From contig CAMWKN010000016.1 in NCBI GenBank assembly GCA_947174825.1, positions 1-11,075 on the forward strand: a stretch of 11,075 bases of DNA. The letters are read 5' to 3'. Below the pieces are notes generated by a model that saw only the letters and a list, made by a program, of their open reading frames with translations, made no database searches and was not told the origin of the DNA. Within the stretch, counting starts at the first letter, position 1; every line of letters begins with the position of its first letter. This document shows positions 1,396-10,469 of this stretch, in pieces. The position numbers and the translations under genes were made by a program. This DNA is from an uncultured Clostridium sp. (GTDB lineage Bacteria > Bacillota_A > Clostridia > Lachnospirales > Lachnospiraceae).

Positions 1396-1656
1396 ATGAA
1401 TATGGCAATTAATGAACAAATTGTAACAGGCAGAAAATTCAGAAAATTAATTGACGAAGCCACCAGGCAATGGCAGAGAACATCATTCTGGAGAAAAGCC
1501 GTTGATGTGGAATTTGATGATGGAAGCAATGCTGAGACTAAATTAAGTGCAATAAACGGAATAACCGACAGCCTGACAAGCACCTCCTCAAATATAGCCG
1601 CCAGTGCTGCTGCCGTTAAAGCCTTGAATGATAAGCTTATTGAATTAAGCAGTTAA
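1396..1656 (+). CDS. Stand-alone 86-aa copy of the tail-fibre N-terminal domain
   Basis: The ATG at 1396 follows AAAGGA (1385-1390) at good spacing; a second ATG at 1402 gives a protein starting exactly like its paralogue. The product matches the constant N-terminus of the fibre protein at 6733 almost residue for residue: TGRKFRKLIDEAT, then VEFDDG.NAETK, then GITDSLTSTSSN.AASAAAV and KALNDK. It stops at ELSS, precisely where the paralogue continues into the recombination site (ELNSDL). It therefore has the presumed attachment or oligomerisation part but no receptor-binding C-terminus and no TAGCGAT site. It may be a baseplate adaptor or collar subunit, or a relic of a former fibre gene. The tight RBS and clean stop argue for a functional gene. 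Function is unknown. Confidence 0.8.
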   Translation: MNMAINEQIVTGRKFRKLIDEATRQWQRTSFWRKAVDVEFDDGSNAETKLSAINGITDSLTSTSSNIAASAAAVKALNDKLIELSS

Positions 1657-1675
1657 TTATGAGGTGAAATTCATC

Positions 1676-3194: not shown

Positions 3195-4124
3195 ATGTTT
3201 CTGTGTGGAAGTAATTTTGTTGGAGGCGCATTGGCATGTGCTGTTACTCCAACCGGTATGGAAAACATTAATTATGTGGAACTCAAAAACGGAATATATG
3301 ATGATTTATATATAACCAAAGCAACGGATTTTGAATTAACCGATAAATGCCCTGATGAATGGGATTTTGACACTGTGCTGTGGGCTAAGTTTAGTGGGAA
3401 TACAGACGCGGGGAATATTGATTGGAATTCAGACGCAATCTCTCATATCATATTAAAAAGCAGACCGGAGGGCAGTTTTAAATGGAAAACAATAGCTGTC
3501 AGAGAAATTAATACAATGAACGATTATGTAATAAATTATCCTGACTACTTTGTTGCTTCCGGTGAAACTGTTGAATACGCAATTGTTCCTATTCTGTATG
3601 GCAGCGAGGGAAGTTACGCATCCACAAAAACCACTCTTAAATTCGGTAAAATGTTTTTAGTTGAAGGAAATACGGTGTGGGGAACTGAGATTACGGACGG
3701 ATATTGTGATACGACACGTAATATTCCTTCTTCTACCGTTGAGCTGTTAAACAGCAGATATCCTGTTTTTATCAGGAATACCATCGCGAATTACGATACG
3801 GGTAGCTGTAAAGGCTCTTTTGTGCCGCTTTCAGATGAGGAAGGCTGTGAATTCGCTTATGACAGCAAACATGATTACCGACGTATTATGTACCAGAGAG
3901 AGTTTATGGACTTCATATGTGACAGTATCCCTAAAATCTTGAAGCTCCCGGATGGACGTTTGTGGCTTATACAGGTAACTCCCAATCCGACTGACACGGC
4001 AAATCAGGCATATAATGACAGAGAAATCTCATGGTCTTGGATTGAAGTTGGAAGTGTTGATTCTGAAGAAGATTTGTACTATTTGGGACTGTCAGATGTA
4101 ACGGAAGAATGGTGGAATAAATAA
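3195..4124 (+). CDS. Putative tail-tip/baseplate protein (309 aa)
   Basis: The start is fixed by the very strong ribosome binding site at 3178-3186. The stop overlaps the next start (TAATG at 4122-4126), so it is tightly coupled to the hub gene. The sequence is beta-rich. It includes DEWDFDTVLWAKFSGNTDAGN, a segment on mapping values (SHIILKSRPEGSFKWKTIAV), VEYAIVPILYGSEGSY, and an aromatic C-terminus (REISWSWIEVGSVDSEEDLYYLGL). This arrangement resembles distal tail or upper baseplate proteins of Firmicutes phages, but I do not recognise a named family. Position between the FN3-like protein and the hub protein supports a structural role at the tail tip. Confidence 0.68.
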   Translation: MFLCGSNFVGGALACAVTPTGMENINYVELKNGIYDDLYITKATDFELTDKCPDEWDFDTVLWAKFSGNTDAGNIDWNSDAISHIILKSRPEGSFKWKTIAVREINTMNDYVINYPDYFVASGETVEYAIVPILYGSEGSYASTKTTLKFGKMFLVEGNTVWGTEITDGYCDTTRNIPSSTVELLNSRYPVFIRNTIANYDTGSCKGSFVPLSDEEGCEFAYDSKHDYRRIMYQREFMDFICDSIPKILKLPDGRLWLIQVTPNPTDTANQAYNDREISWSWIEVGSVDSEEDLYYLGLSDVTEEWWNK

Positions 4125-5794
4125 TGGCAGATATAATAACACAGGAAGATTTGCTGATTGTTCTCCAACAGTCGGCAGCACCACAAACAATGAAATTAAA
4201 TATTGAGGTACTGGATGTCGATCAGAAAATCATAGGTAAGATTGAATGCGGATTGGTCAGTGGCAGTATGTCTGTTAATGGTGAATCCGATATAAGGCGT
4301 ACTGCCAATTTTGTTGTACAGCCCACTTTGACAGAGCATATAAAGCTTACTGAAACGAGTCTGCTATGGCTTAACAGGGATATACGGATATCCGTCGGAT
4401 TATATAACACAAGAACCAAACAGTACAAATATTATCCTTTCGGATATTATGTTTATACGGATACATCAGGTGCTTATGATGCTGCAACCAACAATCTTAC
4501 CGTCAACTGTTCTGATTTTATGAAGAAATTGGATGGTACTAAAAACGGACAGTTAGGCCCATTAATTATAAGCTACCCTGCTTTTAAAGAAAATGAAGAG
4601 ACAGGCGAAGTTATTGAACACAATATAATTCGTAATGCTGTCATTGAAACACTGGAAAAGTTAGCACGTATAACAAATCATCGGATTGACGATATCGGTG
4701 AATATAAAGCCATGCCTGATTATAATGACGACTGGCAGAAATATCGGGAAGAAAATGTTTCAACATGGAACGCAATACCCTATGATCAGGAATTTTCTGC
4801 CGGTTGCAGTGTCCTTTCTATTCTGACTGCTTTCCGTGATTTATATCCCAACTACGAAATGTTTTTCGATATGGAAAACAATACATTTATATGTCAGCTA
4901 AAGCCTATGTGCTATGAGGATGATATTTTCTTGGATAATGCTTTTCTGCAACGGGTATTAATATCTGAGAATACATCCGTAGATATGACTACCGTGCGCA
5001 ATATTTGTGAAGTGTGGGGACAGGTCATAGAGGTGGATTTTTACAGCGAAGAAGGCTATTATTCCAACAACACATACGCTTTCACCATTGCGGGATATAA
5101 TGCCGGATACTGCAACGGAGATGTTATAGGATTAAAAATCCCATCTGCAAATCAGTCCCATGCACTGATAAATATCAATAATTTTGGTACTATAGGACTA
5201 TATAACGAAGCAAATGAAAGACCCATTCAAGCTGACGAATTAAAACCCGATAATGTATATGCCTTTAAAATCAAGAAAAGCCGTATAGATAATCAAGATG
5301 TATTTAAAGCATATTTGTTAGGACAATATCAGGTTCATGCAATCAATGTTTTAACCAACGGAAAGAAAAGCGGTCAGTTCGTAACAGGCTCTGACGGTAA
5401 GGAATATGAACTCTATTCCAAAGAATATTTTCAGAAATTCTATAACTGTGAATGTGTTGATATGACTGTAATTGAAGACTCACCCTTTGCAGTAGAAAAA
5501 TTAGGTGAAATCCCTGATATTAAGGTAAGCGGAGAATATGAGAATATTACGTCTGATAATCTGGCCGCTGACAGAGCCAAATGGGAAAATTGGAAAAATT
5601 GCAGATTAACTGATAATATTACAATTACTACTGCTCTTCTGCCATTTCTTGATGTGAATAAAAAGGTGTCGTATAAACCAAGTGATTCAGATATAGAACA
5701 TCAATATATCATCTCTTCCATTTCTCATGATTTTTCAGGGTATACAACTACCATCACAATGTATCGTTTTTATCCTTTATATAAGGTGCTGTAG
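4124..5794 (+). CDS. Baseplate hub / tail-associated protein, DUF5048-like
   Basis: 556 residues, starting at an ATG that shares one base with the upstream stop. The N-terminal third has the pattern I associate with DUF5048 phage proteins: MKLNIEVLDVDQKIIGKIEC, SGSMSVNGESDIRRTANFVV, LWLNRDIRISVGLYN, PFGYYVYTD and LTVNCSDFMKKLDGTKNGQ. These belong to the hub group (gp27/XkdQ-like) that forms the ring at the tail tip and holds the spike or lysin. A central segment (about residues 235-345) continues this fold. The C-terminus (ITITTALLPFLDVNKKVSYK..., YIISSISHDFSGYTTTITMYRFYPLY) matches the usual hub ending. No peptidase or muramidase motif was seen, so a lytic activity is not supported. Confidence 0.78.
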   Translation: MADIITQEDLLIVLQQSAAPQTMKLNIEVLDVDQKIIGKIECGLVSGSMSVNGESDIRRTANFVVQPTLTEHIKLTETSLLWLNRDIRISVGLYNTRTKQYKYYPFGYYVYTDTSGAYDAATNNLTVNCSDFMKKLDGTKNGQLGPLIISYPAFKENEETGEVIEHNIIRNAVIETLEKLARITNHRIDDIGEYKAMPDYNDDWQKYREENVSTWNAIPYDQEFSAGCSVLSILTAFRDLYPNYEMFFDMENNTFICQLKPMCYEDDIFLDNAFLQRVLISENTSVDMTTVRNICEVWGQVIEVDFYSEEGYYSNNTYAFTIAGYNAGYCNGDVIGLKIPSANQSHALININNFGTIGLYNEANERPIQADELKPDNVYAFKIKKSRIDNQDVFKAYLLGQYQVHAINVLTNGKKSGQFVTGSDGKEYELYSKEYFQKFYNCECVDMTVIEDSPFAVEKLGEIPDIKVSGEYENITSDNLAADRAKWENWKNCRLTDNITITTALLPFLDVNKKVSYKPSDSDIEHQYIISSISHDFSGYTTTITMYRFYPLYKVL

Positions 5795-5858: not shown

Positions 5859-6188
5859 ATGTCAGATTTTGAACGGGAGTTTAGTAATTTCCCCGAAGAA
5901 AAGATTACTAAACACAATTTTATTAATATAGACGATGATGCTGCCTCCTTAATTAATCAAATCAATTCTCTCCGTTCTCAGGGATTATACGCGAAGGCAG
6001 CTTCCGTTATTCAGGACAACAAGGATATTTTGTCACAATATATTGCAGATGCGATTACATTCCGCACATGGGAAGAAGAAATCTACAATACTCAGATATA
6101 TGCAAAACAAAAACAGCAGTCCGTTTACTTTGATGATCAGGAACCAGATTGCATTGAGGGAGATGTCTGGCTTGGAGGTGATGCTTAG
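5859..6188 (+). CDS. Small phage tail-region protein (109 aa), paralogue of the next gene
   Basis: The ATG at 5859 follows AAAGGA (about 5845-5850). It is helical up to about residue 85. The core INSLRSQGLYAKAASVIQD...DILSQYIAD...EEEIYNTQIYAKQK aligns with the next gene's INHYNHLIAKGKYSEASDYIN...GIYGFFADFFNLMENRIYALQKYL. The C-terminus is YFDDQEPDCIEGDVWLGGDA. The 'P-x-x-GDVW' ending is frequent in small structural proteins of Clostridia phages, as I recall. Its last codons contain a GGAGGTGAT ribosome binding site for the following gene. Function is unknown; it is probably a minor tail or baseplate component or fibre chaperone. Confidence 0.72.
   Translation: MSDFEREFSNFPEEKITKHNFINIDDDAASLINQINSLRSQGLYAKAASVIQDNKDILSQYIADAITFRTWEEEIYNTQIYAKQKQQSVYFDDQEPDCIEGDVWLGGDA
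6174..6182 (+). promoter_or_regulatory. Shine-Dalgarno embedded in the end of the 5859 gene; selects the GTG start at 6188
   Basis: GGAGGTGAT ends 5 nt before GTG (6188-6190), which overlaps the upstream TAG (6186-6188). The same 15-base stretch (TGGCTTGGAGGTGAT, coding WLGGD) ends the 1972 gene. Confidence 0.72.
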
Positions 6189-6658
6189 TGCTCTGCAATC
6201 CGATATCATATTATCCTGATAAGGTTGACGAAATGGTATTTTTTCAGGATAACAATCTTGAAACCATGGAAATTATTAACCATTACAATCATTTGATTGC
6301 AAAGGGCAAATACAGTGAAGCAAGTGATTATATAAATCAGCAGAAAGGAATCTATGGGTTCTTTGCTGATTTTTTTAATCTCATGGAAAATCGTATTTAT
6401 GCTCTTCAAAAGTATCTGTTAAGCAAACCTCCCAAAAAGCAACCGTTTATTTATTATGACGAAAAAGCATATCCCTCGCTTGACATATCTGTTTTTTCTG
6501 ACACCGATGAAGAGGAGCGCCTGGAAACTATTCAATTATTTTCAGATGATGACAATTCAGAGGATTTATCATCATACCATTTATTTCCGGATGACGAGGA
6601 ACCTGAAAAAGAAGAACTTGAACCACCTCTTACAAACCAAGACACGATTTGGATTTAA
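6188..6658 (+). CDS. Small phage tail-region protein (156 aa) with acidic 15-residue repeats
   Basis: It starts at GTG 6188, one base overlapping the previous stop, and is served by the embedded GGAGGTGAT. Residues about 28-80 (HLIAKGKYSEASDYINQQKG, GFFADFFNLMENRIYALQKY) form the helical core shared with the previous gene. That core is a common small-protein family next to fibre genes in Clostridia phages, as I remember it. Residues 100-144 hold three 15-residue repeats with phenylalanines at 103, 118 and 133, each followed by Ser/Pro-Asp and a run of Asp/Glu. The end, NQDTIWI, corresponds to the usual GDVWI-type closing motif, so the acidic repeats look like an insertion between core and closing motif. 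Function is unknown. Confidence 0.7.
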   Translation: MLCNPISYYPDKVDEMVFFQDNNLETMEIINHYNHLIAKGKYSEASDYINQQKGIYGFFADFFNLMENRIYALQKYLLSKPPKKQPFIYYDEKAYPSLDISVFSDTDEEERLETIQLFSDDDNSEDLSSYHLFPDDEEPEKEELEPPLTNQDTIWI

Positions 6659-6660
6659 GA

Positions 6661-6711
6661 CAATAAAAAAATTGATATAAGATGTCTCTGAATAAGAGGC
6701 ATTTTTTATTG
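6661..6711 (+). terminator. Terminator-like hairpin just upstream of the fibre gene
   Basis: ATGTCTCT (6682-6689) pairs with AGAGGCAT (6695-6702) with one G-U pair and a GAATA loop, followed by six T (6702-6707). In addition, CAATAAAAAA (6661-6670) can pair with TTTTTTATTG (6702-6711), either extending the stem or sequestering the T-run. This may lower fibre expression relative to the tail operon. It lies only about 10 nt before the fibre gene's ribosome binding site. Confidence 0.6.
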
Positions 6712-6732
6712 TATAAACGAAAGGAGTTTATC

Positions 6733-7323
6733 ATGGCAATAAATGAAACCATTGTAACAGGAAGGAAATTCAGGAAATTAATTGACGAAGCAACCAAATT
6801 ATGGCAGAGGATTTCTTTTTGGGGAGTAGCAACTGATGTTGAATTTGATGATGGTGAAAATGCCGAGACCAAATTTGGTGCGATTAGCGGTATTACAGAT
6901 TCATTAACATCTACATCCTCAAATGTCGCTGCCTCTGCCGCCGCCGTGAAAGCTTTGAATGATAAAATTGTTGAATTAAATAGCGATTTAGGTTCCATTT
7001 ACTATTTGGGAACCGGAACCTCGTTTGACCTCAAAGCAAAATTCCCTGATAGGTATCAGGATTTTATAGCAGATAATTTTATTGTTGGAATTACAGGAAT
7101 GGGTGCATGTGGTGGACAAGTTGTCCGCGAAATGGCCGAAAATTCGTGCGGTCGTGCAGAAGGCTTTAGTCTAAAAAAGGATTACTCTTCAACATCTGGA
7201 ATACTTACGATTTCCGGAAATACGCAACAGGTAGGCGGATATAAGTATCCGAATTGGGTAACTGGTACTTCAGTGCAATCTGGAGCTACCTTTGCCTATT
7301 TGGTTATAGGTAAGATAAATTAA
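6733..7323 (+). CDS. Tail fibre / receptor-binding protein: constant N-terminus fused to variable cassette 1
   Basis: The start at ATG 6733 is set by AAGGAG (6721-6726); the ATG at 6682 lies inside a hairpin. 196 residues. Residues 1-82 (MAINETIVTGRKFRKLIDEA..., VEFDDGENAETK, TDSLTSTSSNVAASAAAV, KALNDKIVEL) are the constant part, paralogous to the 1396 gene and probably the attachment or trimerisation domain. Codons 82-86 (LNSDL) are the recombination site itself. Residues 87-196 are cassette 1: LGTGTSFDLKAKFPD, NFIVGITGM, then TSGILTISGNTQQVGG and FAYLVIGKIN, an ending typical of fibre C-termini of Firmicutes phages. Receptor binding by the cassette is inferred from position and variability. 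The stop at 7321-7323 directly abuts the stop of the inverted cassette 2. Switching is expected by inversion at the flanking sites. Confidence 0.85.
   Translation: MAINETIVTGRKFRKLIDEATKLWQRISFWGVATDVEFDDGENAETKFGAISGITDSLTSTSSNVAASAAAVKALNDKIVELNSDLGSIYYLGTGTSFDLKAKFPDRYQDFIADNFIVGITGMGACGGQVVREMAENSCGRAEGFSLKKDYSSTSGILTISGNTQQVGGYKYPNWVTGTSVQSGATFAYLVIGKIN
6976..6990 (+). repeat. Recombination site S1 (junction of constant and variable fibre regions)
   Basis: TTAAATAGCGATTTA; the asymmetric 7-bp centre TAGCGAT (6981-6987) lies between AT-rich inverted arms. It reads L-N-S-D-L in the fibre frame. The right arm continues as GG, unlike the AAA of the other three sites. Confidence 0.85.
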
Positions 7324-7500
7324 TTACCTCATTGTACCGGCATTGGGGCCACTACCTACAAACGCTTTTGCTTGAGTTGTCCTCCATAGAACGCTACCAT
7401 CTTTACCTATGACTTGTATACTTTCTATATATGTATTTATACCGTCCCGACTGCAATTCCAATATACATGATCAATTATATTTGATTTTAAATCGCTATT
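7324..7500 (-). CDS. Silent fibre cassette 2 (inverted, no start codon)
   Basis: Read on the - strand from site S2, the frame that matches the fibre gene is open for 58 residues and stops at 7326-7324, the base next to the fibre gene's own stop. It reads NSDLKSNIIDHVYWNCSRDG, then TYIESIQVIGKDGSVLWRTT and ends GSGPNAGTMR. It has no start codon or RBS of its own. After inversion between S1 and S2 it would be fused to the constant N-terminus as a 140-residue fibre. It is about half the length of the other cassettes and shows no clear full beta-sandwich, so it may be a truncated or minimal tip. Its function is otherwise unknown. Confidence 0.8.
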   Translation of the reverse strand, partial: NSDLKSNIIDHVYWNCSRDGINTYIESIQVIGKDGSVLWRTTQAKAFVGSGPNAGTMR

Positions 7501-7504
7501 TAAA
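7486..7504 (-). repeat. Recombination site S2 (inverted relative to S1)
   Basis: On the + strand TTTTAAATCGCTATTTAAA; the - strand carries the TAGCGAT centre (7492-7498). It faces cassette 2. The outer flank (to about 7520) resembles that of S4. Confidence 0.87.
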
Positions 7505-7604
7505 GAACCAGTGTTTGCATTCTATTTTACATATTTTTCCTTTTACCAAAAGAGAATTATTAATCAGAACATACATTCTTTTTTTGTGATAGGGAGATGC
7601 TATT

Positions 7605-8600
7605 ATGGATTTAAAGGAAAGATTTGTTGGAAATGCAATTACTATGATGTCTACGAAACTAAATAACTCTGATTTATCCGACTTAAGAAACTGTTTAATA
7701 ATGCTACTTGATGATTTAGAATTAATTCCTCATAAAGAATTACCTTCGCTTGATGTCATTGATAATACATACGTGATTAAACATTTTCTGGCTACCAAGA
7801 AAATGTCCGGTTTATCTGACAATACCTTAAAAACTTATTTGTACCATATAAATAAGTTTTTAGACAGTTGTCAAAGAAATGTGCAGGATATAAACACAAA
7901 CCATATAAGACGCTATTTGGGACAATTGGGCATCAATAGAAGTAATTCCTATGTTGATGATGCAAGAAGAATATTGAACAGTTTCTTTACTTTTTGTGAA
8001 AATGAAGAATACGTTACAAAAAATCCTTGTAAAAAAATTGATCGGATTAAGCAAAAAAAGATTATGGAAGCACCCTACTCCGACACAGAAATTGAGTTGC
8101 TACGGGAAGCCTGTAAAACTTCCCGTGAAATTGCTTTGGTAGATTTTCTGCTTAGTACGGGTTGCAGGCGTGACGAAATCAGAAAAATAAAATTATCTGA
8201 AGTAAATTTGATAGACAGATCCGTATTAATACACGGGAAAGGTAATAAAGACAGAATGGTGTATTTTTCGGCACGATGTGAATTGCATATAAGAGAGTAT
8301 TTAGGTTTTAGGAAAGGAAATTCCGAGTACCTGTTCTGCTCAGAAAGAACACCTTATAATCAATTAACAAATACCGGATTGGCTAAAATCGTTAAAACAA
8401 TTGGTGAACGGGCAAACGTATCTAATGTACATCTGCATAGATTTCGTAAATGGTTTGCTACTTATATGGCTAACAGAGGGGTTCCATTACAAGATTTAAA
8501 AGAAATGTTAGGGCATTCTAAATTGGATACCACAAACAATTACTATGTTTTCACAAATTTGGACAGAATTAAAATTACTCATAAAAACAATGCTGTCTAA
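7605..8600 (+). CDS. Tyrosine recombinase, probable fibre-cassette invertase
   Basis: 331 residues; the ATG at 7605 follows AGGGAGAT (7591-7598). An N-terminal SAM-like core-binding domain spans about residues 50-145 (LSDNTLKTYLYHINKFLD, YVDDARRILNSFFTFCENE, YVTKNPCKKI). The catalytic domain carries the full set: R188 (STGCRRDEI), K212 (GKGNKDR), H278 and R281 (HRFRKWFAT), H304 (LGHSKLDTT) and the nucleophile Y313, nine residues after H304 as in XerD. The second box has Lys (K282) where His is commonest. Length suits XerC/D-like recombinases and Rci-type invertases. It lies between the two cassette pairs and inside the interval of sites, so its likely job is cassette inversion. It could instead, or also, be the prophage integrase. 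No clear promoter is visible in the 98-bp gap upstream, and no terminator separates it from the fibre gene. Confidence 0.9.
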   Translation: MDLKERFVGNAITMMSTKLNNSDLSDLRNCLIMLLDDLELIPHKELPSLDVIDNTYVIKHFLATKKMSGLSDNTLKTYLYHINKFLDSCQRNVQDINTNHIRRYLGQLGINRSNSYVDDARRILNSFFTFCENEEYVTKNPCKKIDRIKQKKIMEAPYSDTEIELLREACKTSREIALVDFLLSTGCRRDEIRKIKLSEVNLIDRSVLIHGKGNKDRMVYFSARCELHIREYLGFRKGNSEYLFCSERTPYNQLTNTGLAKIVKTIGERANVSNVHLHRFRKWFATYMANRGVPLQDLKEMLGHSKLDTTNNYYVFTNLDRIKITHKNNAV

Positions 8601-8711
8601 ACAAGGTTTTATAATTTAACAGAAAACTCTATTAATTTGAGAATAAGATGTATTGTATTTATTAAATTTTTTATGTCTTATTTTCTATGCTCAAAAGAAA
8701 GGAAAATATTA

Positions 8712-9452
8712 ATGGAAAAAATTCATTTTTATAACACGGATACTATTTATGAAGGAACTACCGATTTTATCAACAGACATGTGCTTGTAATTAATTTTAA
8801 AGGTTCTGTTCCTTCAGCGGAAATTAACAATGGCTTTGAAATACTGAATGAAAATAATGATTATGTTCAGGCAGAATATAAAAATTTTATCACTGTCTAC
8901 AGAACTTATGAGGATGAGACAGGCAGAATCGAGTTTTCTGATGATGGGTCCGTTTATACTGAACCGGAAAAAATTCCTGAATCAGAACCATATATTCCAA
9001 CATTAGAAGAGATTAAGTTGCAAAAGATTAGTGAGTTGTCACACATTTGCAGTCAGTTAATCACCAGTGGAGTGGATCTTGAAATAGACGATAATACAGA
9101 ACATTTCAGCTACAAGGATGAGGATCAGGTAAACATAAAAGAAATCTTTGACCTTGCGGTACAGACAAATGTTCCTATGTATTACCATAGTGATGGAAAC
9201 AGTTGCAAATTATATTCTGTAGAACAGATTATTTCACTTTATACTGCTACTACCACCAATAAAATGCACCATCAGACATATTTCAATCAGTTAAAATTAT
9301 ACATACTGTCATTAGAGGATGCGGAAACTGTCAAAAATGTTAATTATGGAGATGACTTGACGGGAGAATATTTGCAAACTTATAACGATGCCATGACACA
9401 GGCACATATACTGATTGAAGCTTTATTGTCAAAAAATAAGTTCTTAATATAG
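8712..9452 (+). CDS. Phage tail-associated protein with DUF4376-like C-terminal domain (246 aa)
   Basis: I chose the ATG at 8712 because AAAGGA lies just upstream (8698-8703); an upstream ATA/TTG extension to 8637 has no RBS. Residues 1-75 are beta-rich (MEKIHFYNTDTIYEGTTDFI, NFITVYRTYEDETGRIEFSD). Residues about 100-240 fit DUF4376 as I recall it: LEEIKLQKISELSHIC, FSYKDEDQVNIKEIFDLA, VPMYYHSDGNSCKLYSVEQI, HHQTYFNQLKLYILSL, NVNYGDDLTGEYLQTYNDAM. Such proteins are commonly found beside tail fibre genes and are thought to be structural or assembly factors. It lies between sites S2 and S3, so some recombination events would invert it with the recombinase. It is followed by a strong terminator. 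Confidence 0.78.
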   Translation: MEKIHFYNTDTIYEGTTDFINRHVLVINFKGSVPSAEINNGFEILNENNDYVQAEYKNFITVYRTYEDETGRIEFSDDGSVYTEPEKIPESEPYIPTLEEIKLQKISELSHICSQLITSGVDLEIDDNTEHFSYKDEDQVNIKEIFDLAVQTNVPMYYHSDGNSCKLYSVEQIISLYTATTTNKMHHQTYFNQLKLYILSLEDAETVKNVNYGDDLTGEYLQTYNDAMTQAHILIEALLSKNKFLI

Positions 9453-9464
9453 TCTTACATTTAT

Positions 9465-9502
9465 ATAGGGAATACCACAAATAAAGGTATTCCCTATTTT
9501 TT
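9465..9502 (+). terminator. Strong intrinsic terminator after the 8712 gene
   Basis: A perfect 12-bp stem ATAGGGAATACC/GGTATTCCCTAT (9465-9476 with 9486-9497) with a 9-nt loop is followed by a T-run to 9502. It separates the transcribed tail genes from silent cassettes 3 and 4. Confidence 0.9.
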
Positions 9503-9537
9503 ACGCTCTAACCAAGTCATTCACAGAATATTAGTTC

Positions 9538-9556
9538 TTAAAATAGCGATTTAAAA
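9538..9556 (+). repeat. Recombination site S3 (same orientation as S1)
   Basis: TTAAAATAGCGATTTAAAA with the TAGCGAT centre at 9544-9550. It opens into cassette 3. One arm base differs from the other sites (AAAA in place of TAAA on the left). Confidence 0.86.
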
Positions 9557-9871
9557 TCTGGTCTAACAAATTTGAAGTTTGTTGATTCGTTTTATGAAGC
9601 AAGCTTGGGAGAAAATGGCGTAAATGACCATGACTTTATAGCGCCTCAAAATGGACTGTATACGATTATGGCATATGCCACAGGCAATAAGTCAAAAACA
9701 GCCATATACAAAAACGGAGTAGATATCAGTAGCACATTTTTGAATGTTACACTCTATCCTTCGTCTTTTGTACTCTTAAGTGTAGAACTGAAGACCAGCG
9801 ATAAAGTTAAAATACATGTTGAGAACCATGGCGGCGGTGACTATACTCGTCAATATTGGATATATAATTAG
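9542..9871 (+). CDS. Silent fibre cassette 3 (no start codon)
   Basis: From the site, the frame NSDLKSGLTNLKFVDSFYEA is open for 109 residues to TAG (9869-9871). An in-frame TAA (9539-9541) lies directly upstream and there is no ATG or RBS; the TTG at 9572 is not a credible start. The sequence has a jelly-roll feel, similar to C1q/TNF-like heads of receptor-binding proteins: HDFIAPQNGLYTIMAYATGN, AIYKNGVDIS, SFVLLSVELKTSDKVKIHVE, GGDYTRQYWIYN. It would be fused to the constant N-terminus as a 191-residue fibre after inversion S1 x S4 followed by inversion of the 3/4 pair. The strong terminator upstream keeps it silent. Confidence 0.83.
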   Translation, partial: NSDLKSGLTNLKFVDSFYEASLGENGVNDHDFIAPQNGLYTIMAYATGNKSKTAIYKNGVDISSTFLNVTLYPSSFVLLSVELKTSDKVKIHVENHGGGDYTRQYWIYN

Positions 9872-10182
9872 AACAAAACATAACCATCATGTATGGCAAC
9901 CGTGCCTGTAAGTTCTGAACCGGGATAATTACGTTGACTTATTTTTACAACATCATTAGCGCGGCAAACATGTTTAATTGTTTTTGTTCCATTCGCAGCG
10001 TGAACTTTTATTGTTTCCGTATGCTCCCCTACAGTTATATCAACCCATTTGTAGTATCCCGATTCTGTTTTGTTTGTCCAAGAAAAGGTTACAATTACGC
10101 AGCAATCTTTTGAACATGTATAAGGATTGGAAGTGATGCTCTCATAGTCAACATTATTCCAATCAATTTTTAAATCGCTATT
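9868..10182 (-). CDS. Silent fibre cassette 4 (inverted, no start codon)
   Basis: Read on the - strand from site S4, the fibre frame NSDLKIDWNNVDYESITSNP is open for 104 residues to TAA (9870-9868), which overlaps the stop of cassette 3 by two bases. Later segments are SKDCCVIVTFSWTNKTESGY, TIKVHAANGTKTIKHVCRAN, DVVKISQRNYPGSELTG and a C-terminus HDGYVLF. It can be aligned loosely with cassette 3 (a strand around 'VKI', a Gly-rich turn, a final strand), so both may share a beta-sandwich fold. It has four cysteines, unusual beside the other cassettes. There is no start codon. A single S1 x S4 inversion would fuse it to the constant N-terminus as a 186-residue fibre. Confidence 0.83.
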   Translation of the reverse strand, partial: NSDLKIDWNNVDYESITSNPYTCSKDCCVIVTFSWTNKTESGYYKWVDITVGEHTETIKVHAANGTKTIKHVCRANDVVKISQRNYPGSELTGTVAIHDGYVLF

Positions 10183-10186
10183 TAAA
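10168..10186 (-). repeat. Recombination site S4 (inverted relative to S1)
   Basis: On the + strand TTTTAAATCGCTATTTAAA, identical over 19 bp to S2; the TAGCGAT centre is at 10174-10180 on the - strand. It faces cassette 4. Confidence 0.87.
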
Positions 10187-10315
10187 AAACTAATGTTTGA
10201 ATATAATAAAAACTTTTAAATATATTTTATACTAAACTATCTTGACATAACTTTTTTAATTTGTTTTGGGGGCAATTCAATTTTTAATATACTCAGTAAA
10301 TATAATGTGTTTAAG
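10187..10315. other. AT-rich non-coding stretch after the last cassette site
   Basis: I see no gene here. The first 15-20 bases resemble the outer flank of S2. A TTGACA (10242-10247) and a TATAAT (10301-10306) occur but are not at promoter spacing with each other or with good partners. Confidence 0.5.
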
Positions 10316-10352
10316 GCTCAGGACACGGGTTCGCCCCCGTCTACTCTACTCA
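10316..10352 (+). other. Degenerate tRNA/tmRNA-like 3' fragment; possible displaced attachment site
   Basis: ACGGG, then TTCGCC, then CCCGT forms a T-arm-like hairpin (about 10325-10340) with a TTCG loop, one base shorter than the standard 7-nt loop. It is followed by CTACTCTACTCA, roughly where an acceptor strand would be, and then by a strong terminator. No D-arm, anticodon arm or 5' acceptor half is present and there is no CCA end, so this is not a working tRNA. A displaced 3' end left at the far side of an integrated prophage would look like this. It is an inference. Confidence 0.35.
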
Positions 10353-10355
10353 ATG

Positions 10356-10390
10356 AAACGCCTGCATTGAAAGGTCTGCAGGCGTTTTAT
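10356..10390 (+). terminator. Strong intrinsic terminator after the tRNA/tmRNA-like fragment
   Basis: A perfect 11-bp stem AAACGCCTGCA/TGCAGGCGTTT (10356-10366 with 10377-10387) with a 10-nt loop is followed by TTTTATTTT-like sequence. It may also stop mazF transcripts arriving on the other strand, though the T-run there is poor. Confidence 0.85.
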
Positions 10391-10469
10391 TTTGGGTCTG
10401 ATTGCATTTTAGCATATCTGTATCGATTCCTTTGCTTTTACTTCCTAAATGATTATTCCAACTATCCCA

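Follow-up and report, generated by a model that had tools for sequence, protein, structure and literature searches.

We find that an uncultured Clostridium sp. of the Lachnospiraceae very probably carries a phage-encoded shufflon that exchanges the C-terminal heads of a tail fibre. The locus lies on contig CAMWKN010000016.1 (assembly GCA_947174825.1), of which the first 11,075 nucleotides, the whole stretch analysed, are called the window here. It comprises a fibre gene, four short sites (S1 to S4), four cassettes encoding predicted fibre ends, and a tyrosine recombinase. By window position and strand, these are:

6721..6726, + strand: ribosome-binding-like AAGGAG ahead of the fibre gene, read in the sequence (start codon at 6733)
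6733..6990, + strand: constant N-terminal part of the tail fibre, 86 aa, with helices 10-29 and 44-84 in the structural model
6976-6990, + strand: site S1, TTAAATAGCGATTTA, read in frame as LNSDL, fibre residues 82-86
6991..7323, + strand: cassette 1, active in the window, 110 aa plus stop; open frame, with an identical cassette in the public protein P0122
7324..7488, - strand: cassette 2, silent, 54 aa plus stop; open frame from S2
7489-7503, - strand: site S2, a copy of TTAAATAGCGATTTA
7605..8600, + strand: tyrosine recombinase, 331 aa, inside the putative invertible array; Pfam Phage_integrase, E 1.4e-30
8712..9452, + strand: DUF4376-like tail-fibre-associated protein, 246 aa, in the block shared with the recombinase
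9539-9553, + strand: site S3, with one mismatch; the 13-base core 9541-9553 is exact
9554..9871, + strand: cassette 3, silent, 105 aa plus stop; open frame from S3
9868..10170, - strand: cassette 4, 100 aa plus stop, silent in the window; the public protein P0123 has it joined to the fibre N-terminus
10171-10185, - strand: site S4, a copy of TTAAATAGCGATTTA

The site is a near-palindromic 15-mer whose core, TAAAT-AGCG-ATTTA, sets an asymmetric centre between perfect five-base arms, and its four copies follow one another in the order + - + -. With at most one mismatch allowed, the 13-mer AAATAGCGATTTA matched the window four times, every time exactly. In 200 shuffles its mean count was 0.06 and its maximum 1, and four copies were never reached (0/200). 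From the fibre start at 6733, S1 is reached after 81 codons. Past S1, S2, S3 and S4 the fibre frame stays open for 110, 54, 105 and 100 codons, respectively, and the two other frames (25/11, 3/4, 3/9 and 24/1 codons) are all closed within 25. Positions in 6000-10300 that are open at least as far, counted on both strands, make up fractions of 0.08, 0.16, 0.08 and 0.09, with a product of ~1e-4. Joined to the constant part, the four cassettes predict fibres of 196, 140, 191 and 186 aa. They stand tail to tail in pairs: the stops of cassettes 1 and 2 abut (7321-7323 and 7324-7326), and those of cassettes 3 and 4 overlap (9869-9871 and 9868-9870). Pairwise identity among the four is 22-31% in forced end-to-end alignments, taken without a random-pair baseline. 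The constant part itself matches Phage_fiber_2 (E 0.0026, below the cut-off) and PHROG 2126, tail fiber (E 0.0027).

The recombinase is located between S2 and S3, that is, inside the array. In addition to Phage_integrase, Pfam recognizes an N-terminal SAM-like domain, and the protein matches the NCBIfam XerA-like family at E 3e-58, below that family's cut-off. It retains R188, K212, K215, H278, R281, H304, Y313 and Y314, which we take to be the catalytic residues; R188, K212, H278, R281 and H304 are the same in every row of a 34-row alignment, and K215 and Y314 in nearly every row. A protein search returned 1465 relatives, of which the best 120 were examined; the nearest among the matches listed, P0001, is 98% identical and lies on a 41,398-bp contig. 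The neighbouring protein at 8712..9452 matches DUF4376 just below the Pfam cut-off (E 5e-5) and PHROG 1348, tail fiber (E 3e-10). An earlier, sequence-only reading of this DNA (the original prediction) had described four near-palindromic sites in alternating orientation, a tyrosine recombinase between them, four different ends in the fibre frame at the site and fibre variants of 196, 140, 191 and 186 residues. All four points hold, the lengths in exact agreement.

Public proteins contain one of the predicted alternative fibres. Among 5.8 billion proteins, 365 matched the fibre, and the best 120 of these were examined. P0123, from a 4,879-bp contig, consists of the window N-part (85/86) and cassette 4 (100/100). 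Its length, 186 aa, is that of the predicted cassette-4 product and is expected from a single inversion between S1 and S4. This fusion, one of three predicted alternative forms, supports the switching interpretation. A second protein, P0121, joins an identical N-part (86/86) to a cassette that is 43% like cassette 1; it occurs on 2 contigs, the longer of 41,398 bp, the same figure as for the contig of recombinase P0001. In P0122, cassette 1 (100%) stands behind a different leader that also ends in LNSDL. When cassette 4 was searched alone there were 2 matches, including P0241, a 60% relative of that cassette. P0122 and P0241 share the leader MTxFVEIFPxMQKVP-LNSDL, and this nearly identical leader before unlike cassettes points to one slot that holds different cassettes in different phages. 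Among N-domain proteins with a recognized site-like peptide (38 of 120), the tails fall into 29 clusters and the N-parts into one. The proposed search for the same N-terminus with other cassettes was fruitful (P0123 and P0121). The predicted 3'-end switching is upheld as regards an independent cassette-4 state and relatives with homologous cassettes in other slots; active inversion within one strain is presumed.

We infer that the window recombinase acts on S1 to S4 and that switching goes on in the strain. The single fibre start would be followed by a constant N-terminal stalk ending at S1. The resident recombinase would pair S1 with an opposite site, S2 or S4, and invert the DNA between them; inversion at S1 would replace the C-terminal head with the frame kept, and events between S3 and S2 or S3 and S4 would reorder the silent cassette stock. 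Owing to the + - + - alternation, each site would comprise one stalk-side half and one cassette-side half. Each cassette pair would then have cassette-side halves at its two ends and the recombinase block stalk-side halves at both of its ends, an arrangement in which no inversion could fuse the block to the fibre. When inversions are enumerated, 16 arrangements result, 4 per cassette, and + - + - is always retained; cassettes 2 and 4 lie one inversion from the present state and cassette 3 lies two away.

In AlphaFold2 models, the cassette-1 fibre (pLDDT 67) and P0123 (pLDDT 63) both show a helix from residue 44 to 84/85, followed by strands, and the site occupies residues 82-86. With the crossover at the end of the stalk helix, these models suggest that heads could be exchanged without disturbing either fold. 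Foldseek comparison of the two models with the PDB gave nothing below E 1e-3; haemagglutinin rows for the P0123 model had a TM of ~0.3 and were not used. Against predicted viral structures, two matches to the cassette-1 model fell below 1e-3, the better at E 5.5e-8 with 29% identity; both are uncharacterized siphovirus proteins (112 and 110 aa) and point to no function. From their position and the known role of fibre tips, the four heads presumably bind different receptors. Elsewhere in the window (1402-1659) the fibre N-domain recurs as a short copy of 84 aa plus stop, 81% identical, which stops at about the site position and has no cassette.

Related arrays occur in other genomes. A scan of GTDB species genomes matched 37 stretches, 9 of which are relatives. 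The locus in Eisenbergiella tayi DSM 26961 (L010) has a fibre N-part 44% and a recombinase 48% identical to those of the window. It carries eight sites with the window's core in the order + - (recombinase) + - + - + -, and behind each of the eight a common frame stays open for 123-189 codons. A relative of cassette 1, which is in the active slot in the window, is found there in a silent slot (13946-13653). The 12-mer AATAGCGATTTA has 5 copies in the 7.6-Mb E. tayi genome, 4 of them within the array locus. Two further loci, L008 and L009, have recombinases 77% and 66% identical to the window's. L008 starts within a site, which mixed arrangements could explain, and L009 has two sites beside the recombinase, near the contig end. 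In L008, a relative of the DUF4376-like protein also follows the recombinase, as judged by eye. The L008 array contig runs (4079-8550) into a truncated SigG-like open reading frame beside SigE-, SpoIIGA- and FtsZ-like frames, names that we assign from reading the translations; this suggests a prophage inserted in a sporulation gene. A search with the N-domain gave 10 matches in 8 of the 397 genomes described below, E. tayi among the 8. None of the five other loci that were fetched has a recombinase relative near the N-domain within the stretch examined, so an N-domain by itself does not indicate an array; in two of the five, L125 and L128, it lies near the contig end.

Viral collections yielded few relatives. 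There was no DNA match to the window and no fibre N-domain in 50,697 phage records. In IMG/VR, the window recombinase found 1 locus at 30% and an alignment query (A1) found 18 loci at up to 38%; the E. tayi recombinase and P0049 found none. The window fibre matched two IMG/VR loci, L002 and L003, with 63% identity in the N-domain; a search for the 15-mer with 2 mismatches allowed found the site in neither, and the L003 sequence stops 73 bases past the match. The 16-mer TTAAATAGCGATTTAG matched 44 viral stretches, 0 of them with a recombinase relative, and an 18-mer that includes the stalk-side flank matched 2, neither with a relative of the recombinase, N-part or cassettes. Two viral contigs carry several recombinases of the window's family, some back to back: four on L017 (619-8201) and three on L020 (7361-10830). 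In Terrisporobacter phage TPELB_ph1 (L007, 2884-5819), a 37% recombinase relative lies downstream of tail genes, and a second gene is annotated as integrase; no 13-mer is repeated three times in both orientations in that locus.

The recombinase family extends well beyond fibre loci. Searched at E 1e-40 in 397 genomes of E. tayi's family, a recombinase profile had matches in 69 (up to 5 candidates were scored per genome, and the 397 were drawn from a larger group). From these we compiled 88 loci: 84 of the 85 listed matches, refetched with wider flanks (the 85th being E. tayi), together with the window, L008, L009 and L010. Arrays of four or more near-palindromic 14-mers (arms 4/5) that change orientation three times or more were present in 18 of the 88 loci, against 0 of 352 shuffles. 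All 18 have sites on both sides of the recombinase, which lies between the second and third site in 16 and between the third and fourth in L129 and L137. A stricter search (perfect five-base arms, at least three copies, both orientations) returned 11 of 88 loci against 1 of 440 shuffles; L160, one of the 11, has all its copies on one side and looks like chance. With no palindrome rule, 27 of 88 loci (15 hsd, 7 tail and 5 unlabelled) stood against 0 of 176 shuffles, with L168, L170 and L163 among the loci whose sites have another sequence; two orientation changes were reached in 15 of 176 shuffles.

Most of the 18 arrays lie beside restriction genes. Neighbours were labelled by tblastn with 15 proteins from the window, L009, L010, L130, L133, L140, L144, L161, L175, L176 and L180; these source loci match themselves, and L009 is "tail" only through its own lysin. 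The 88 loci divide into 28 hsd, 15 tail and 45 unlabelled, and the 18 arrays into 14 hsd and 4 tail (the window, L010, L175 and L180). The hsd-type arrays, each with at least four sites around the recombinase, are L129, L130, L133, L135, L137-L139, L141-L146 and L201. Pfam found HsdS in 3/3 such proteins tested and HsdM in 1/1. Site-bearing genes match PHROG tail families in L161, L163, L168, L169, L170, L172 and L175 (L180 is weakly placed). Of the five unlabelled loci (L163, L170, L172, L179 and L183), the three scanned (L163, L170 and L172) all have a tail-like site-bearing frame; L153 has no PHROG tail match, and L173 matches only a family of unknown function. For L175 and L161, the "tail" label was borne out by Pfam or PHROGs.

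Sites across the family mostly take the form TAAAY-NNNN-ATTTA with locus-specific centres (AGCG, GATA, AATA, GAGA, CACA); L180 departs from it. They are read in the same phase as [L/I]-N-x-x-L, giving LNSDL, LNHNL and LNRKL in fibres and INDNL, INNNL and INENL in HsdS. The recombinases of the window and of the hsd arrays belong to one family (~32-38% identity), share the TAAAY-NNNN-ATTTA sites and have sites on both sides. A quick unrooted tree with 90 rows, made up of 79 loci from the set of 88 plus 11 proteins (Rin, PsrA and Rci lie outside it), sets three groups apart. One is the clade of the window (15 rows, SH-aLRT 100), another takes in every hsd row (23) together with 8 unlabelled rows (SH-aLRT 96), and the third is a tail-linked group of 5 rows that includes L175 and L180 (SH-aLRT 100). 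Of the 87 inner branches, 26 are not resolved. Whether a single Clostridia tyrosine recombinase family provides one portable inversion module is, in our judgement, evenly balanced. Such a module would shuffle fibre heads in at least two clades and type I target-recognition domains in another, at TAAAY-NNNN-ATTTA sites that encode [L/I]-N-x-x-L in a helical linker, with the recombinase inside the array and kept off the fibre by alternation.

The element is likely a prophage, given its tail genes, followed by a probable attachment-site end and a MazE/PemK pair, and its relatives in bacterial contigs. Upstream of the fibre gene (4124..5794, + strand) lies a tail protein with DUF5048, a relative of which is present in the E. 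tayi locus. At 10317-10400 the window has a stretch like the 3' end of a tRNA or tmRNA and a terminator-like inverted repeat, and then the MazE/PemK pair; the region looks like the right end of a prophage. ARAGORN called no tRNA or tmRNA in the window, and Rfam gave nothing above gathering scores. The original prediction had a prophage diversifying host recognition by DNA inversion rather than by mutagenic retrohoming. Inversion is supported by P0123, and an effect on host recognition is presumed; no reverse transcriptase of a diversity-generating retroelement was found among the 10 window proteins scanned by Pfam.

Several observations weigh against an active shufflon. P0123 comes from another assembly, is seen at the protein level and differs from the window in one N-part residue, and cassettes 2 and 3 have no match among the best 120 of the 365 proteins that matched the fibre. 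One of the two silent cassettes of L008 is open for only 26 codons, and one of the two in L009 is out of frame. To these are added the modest confidence of the fibre models, their lack of a PDB match, and the five N-domain loci without a recombinase relative. Even in the loosest scan, such an array is absent from 61 of the 88 recombinase loci, some of which lie on short contigs. The array could accordingly be a former shufflon, now frozen in this strain, with tails exchanged between phages by ordinary recombination only. The short or out-of-frame cassettes of L008 and L009 would fit, and the replaced cassette in P0121 could be an ordinary exchange. We nevertheless consider a frozen array unlikely: the catalytic residues are present, all four cassettes are open, and cassette 4 is 100% identical between two arrangements.

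It is more improbable still that the recombinase is simply the prophage integrase near an attachment-site end, with the repeats and tail ends as leftovers of past recombination. Its best PHROG match is "integrase", its gene lies ~1.7 kb from the probable prophage end at ~10.3 kb, and the window covers only part of the phage, so that another integrase could lie outside it. However, alternating sites flank the recombinase on both sides in 18 of 88 relatives, and 14 of those 18 are beside hsd genes without a match to the tail queries. The four intact frames and the existing cassette-4 fusion also argue against mere leftovers, as does TPELB_ph1, with its second annotated integrase in addition to the family member downstream of tail genes. 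Least probable is that the sites serve mainly for deletion or exchange of cassettes between phages, with inversion incidental: S1 and S3 are direct repeats and the many tail clusters on one N-part cluster would fit, but inversion requires just the perfect alternation that the window and E. tayi show, and an S1-to-S3 deletion would remove the recombinase. Inversion by a resident, working recombinase remains our preferred explanation.

Fibre-end switching of this kind resembles several known systems. In the R64 shufflon, multiple inverted segments give alternative C-termini to one N-part of pilV, and the recombinase Rci flanks the array. R64 had been put forward as the precedent for the window, and the switching principle is indeed the same. 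The R64 product is a plasmid pilus adhesin and the window's is a phage fibre, a likeness by description, and the nearest precedents that we found are instead the Rin shufflon and, by type of recombinase and site, hsdS arrays. Mu Gin, P1 Cin and p15B Min also switch phage tail-fibre ends by inversion, but these are serine recombinases, according to the available passages of PMC6109161, whereas the window enzyme is a tyrosine recombinase.

In 2018, Rin of Bifidobacterium prophages was described as the first invertase of the tyrosine family to be encoded by a phage, and inversions were seen there in sequencing reads (PMC6109161). As in the window, a phage-encoded tyrosine invertase (XerD-like in Rin) is paired with a constant N-part of a receptor-binding protein whose unlike C-parts are swapped at short sites. 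The window shares with this kind of system a phage tyrosine recombinase, an N-part and C-parts in frame at a repeat, and an alternative arrangement (P0123, at the protein level). It stands apart from the Rin shufflon proper: rin flanks its variable genes and uses asymmetric 11-mers (TTCCCTAACCC), whereas the window recombinase lies between S2 and S3 and its site is a near-palindromic 14-15-mer; the recombinases are likened by description (PMC6109161). The Rin-like shufflon of Eggerthella lenta clade 1 prophages, in the passages available, likewise sets a tyrosine recombinase beside receptor-binding gene ends with short repeats, but its repeat is an asymmetric 8-bp one, and its variable genes lie directly downstream of the recombinase rather than around it (PMC8778435; likened by description).

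Inversion of hsdS by PsrA at a 15-bp repeat is established, and these shufflons (PsrA/cod locus) share with the window a tyrosine recombinase, short inverted repeats in coding sequence and C-part exchange with silent copies, as far as the passages available describe them (PMC4948785, PMC7096588). Their product is a DNA-specificity subunit and the window's is a fibre, with PsrA itself likened by description. Hsd queries had no match in the window, which has tail genes instead, so it does not belong with the hsdS shufflons. A genome survey reported that type I systems undergo inversion in 13 species and that, in 4 Proteobacteria species, prophage regions do so too, particularly at tail fibres (PMC5903667). 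The available passages of a gut inverton survey mention hsdS and tyrosine recombinases, and the terms phage tail, tail fiber, prophage and shufflon are absent from them (PMC11892184). In the literature searched, which covers few subscription papers or preprints, we found neither fibre and hsdS arrays connected by a common family of recombinases and sites nor a recombinase inside an alternating array of fibre ends.

Because the Rin, E. lenta and hsdS inversion systems have already been described, the window system is of a known type. Within the literature found, shuffling of tail fibres by a tyrosine invertase was on record for two actinobacterial prophage groups; the Lachnospiraceae loci (E. 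tayi and relatives) would extend it, with a different site and layout and with one predicted alternative state present in public data. That fibre and hsd arrays have a recombinase and site family in common suggests a single tool for diversification in phages and in the restriction systems that oppose them, and a helix-joint module, if true, would serve both sides of the phage-host conflict. The window also offers a possible design rule, namely a crossover at a helix joint and sites in alternating orientation.

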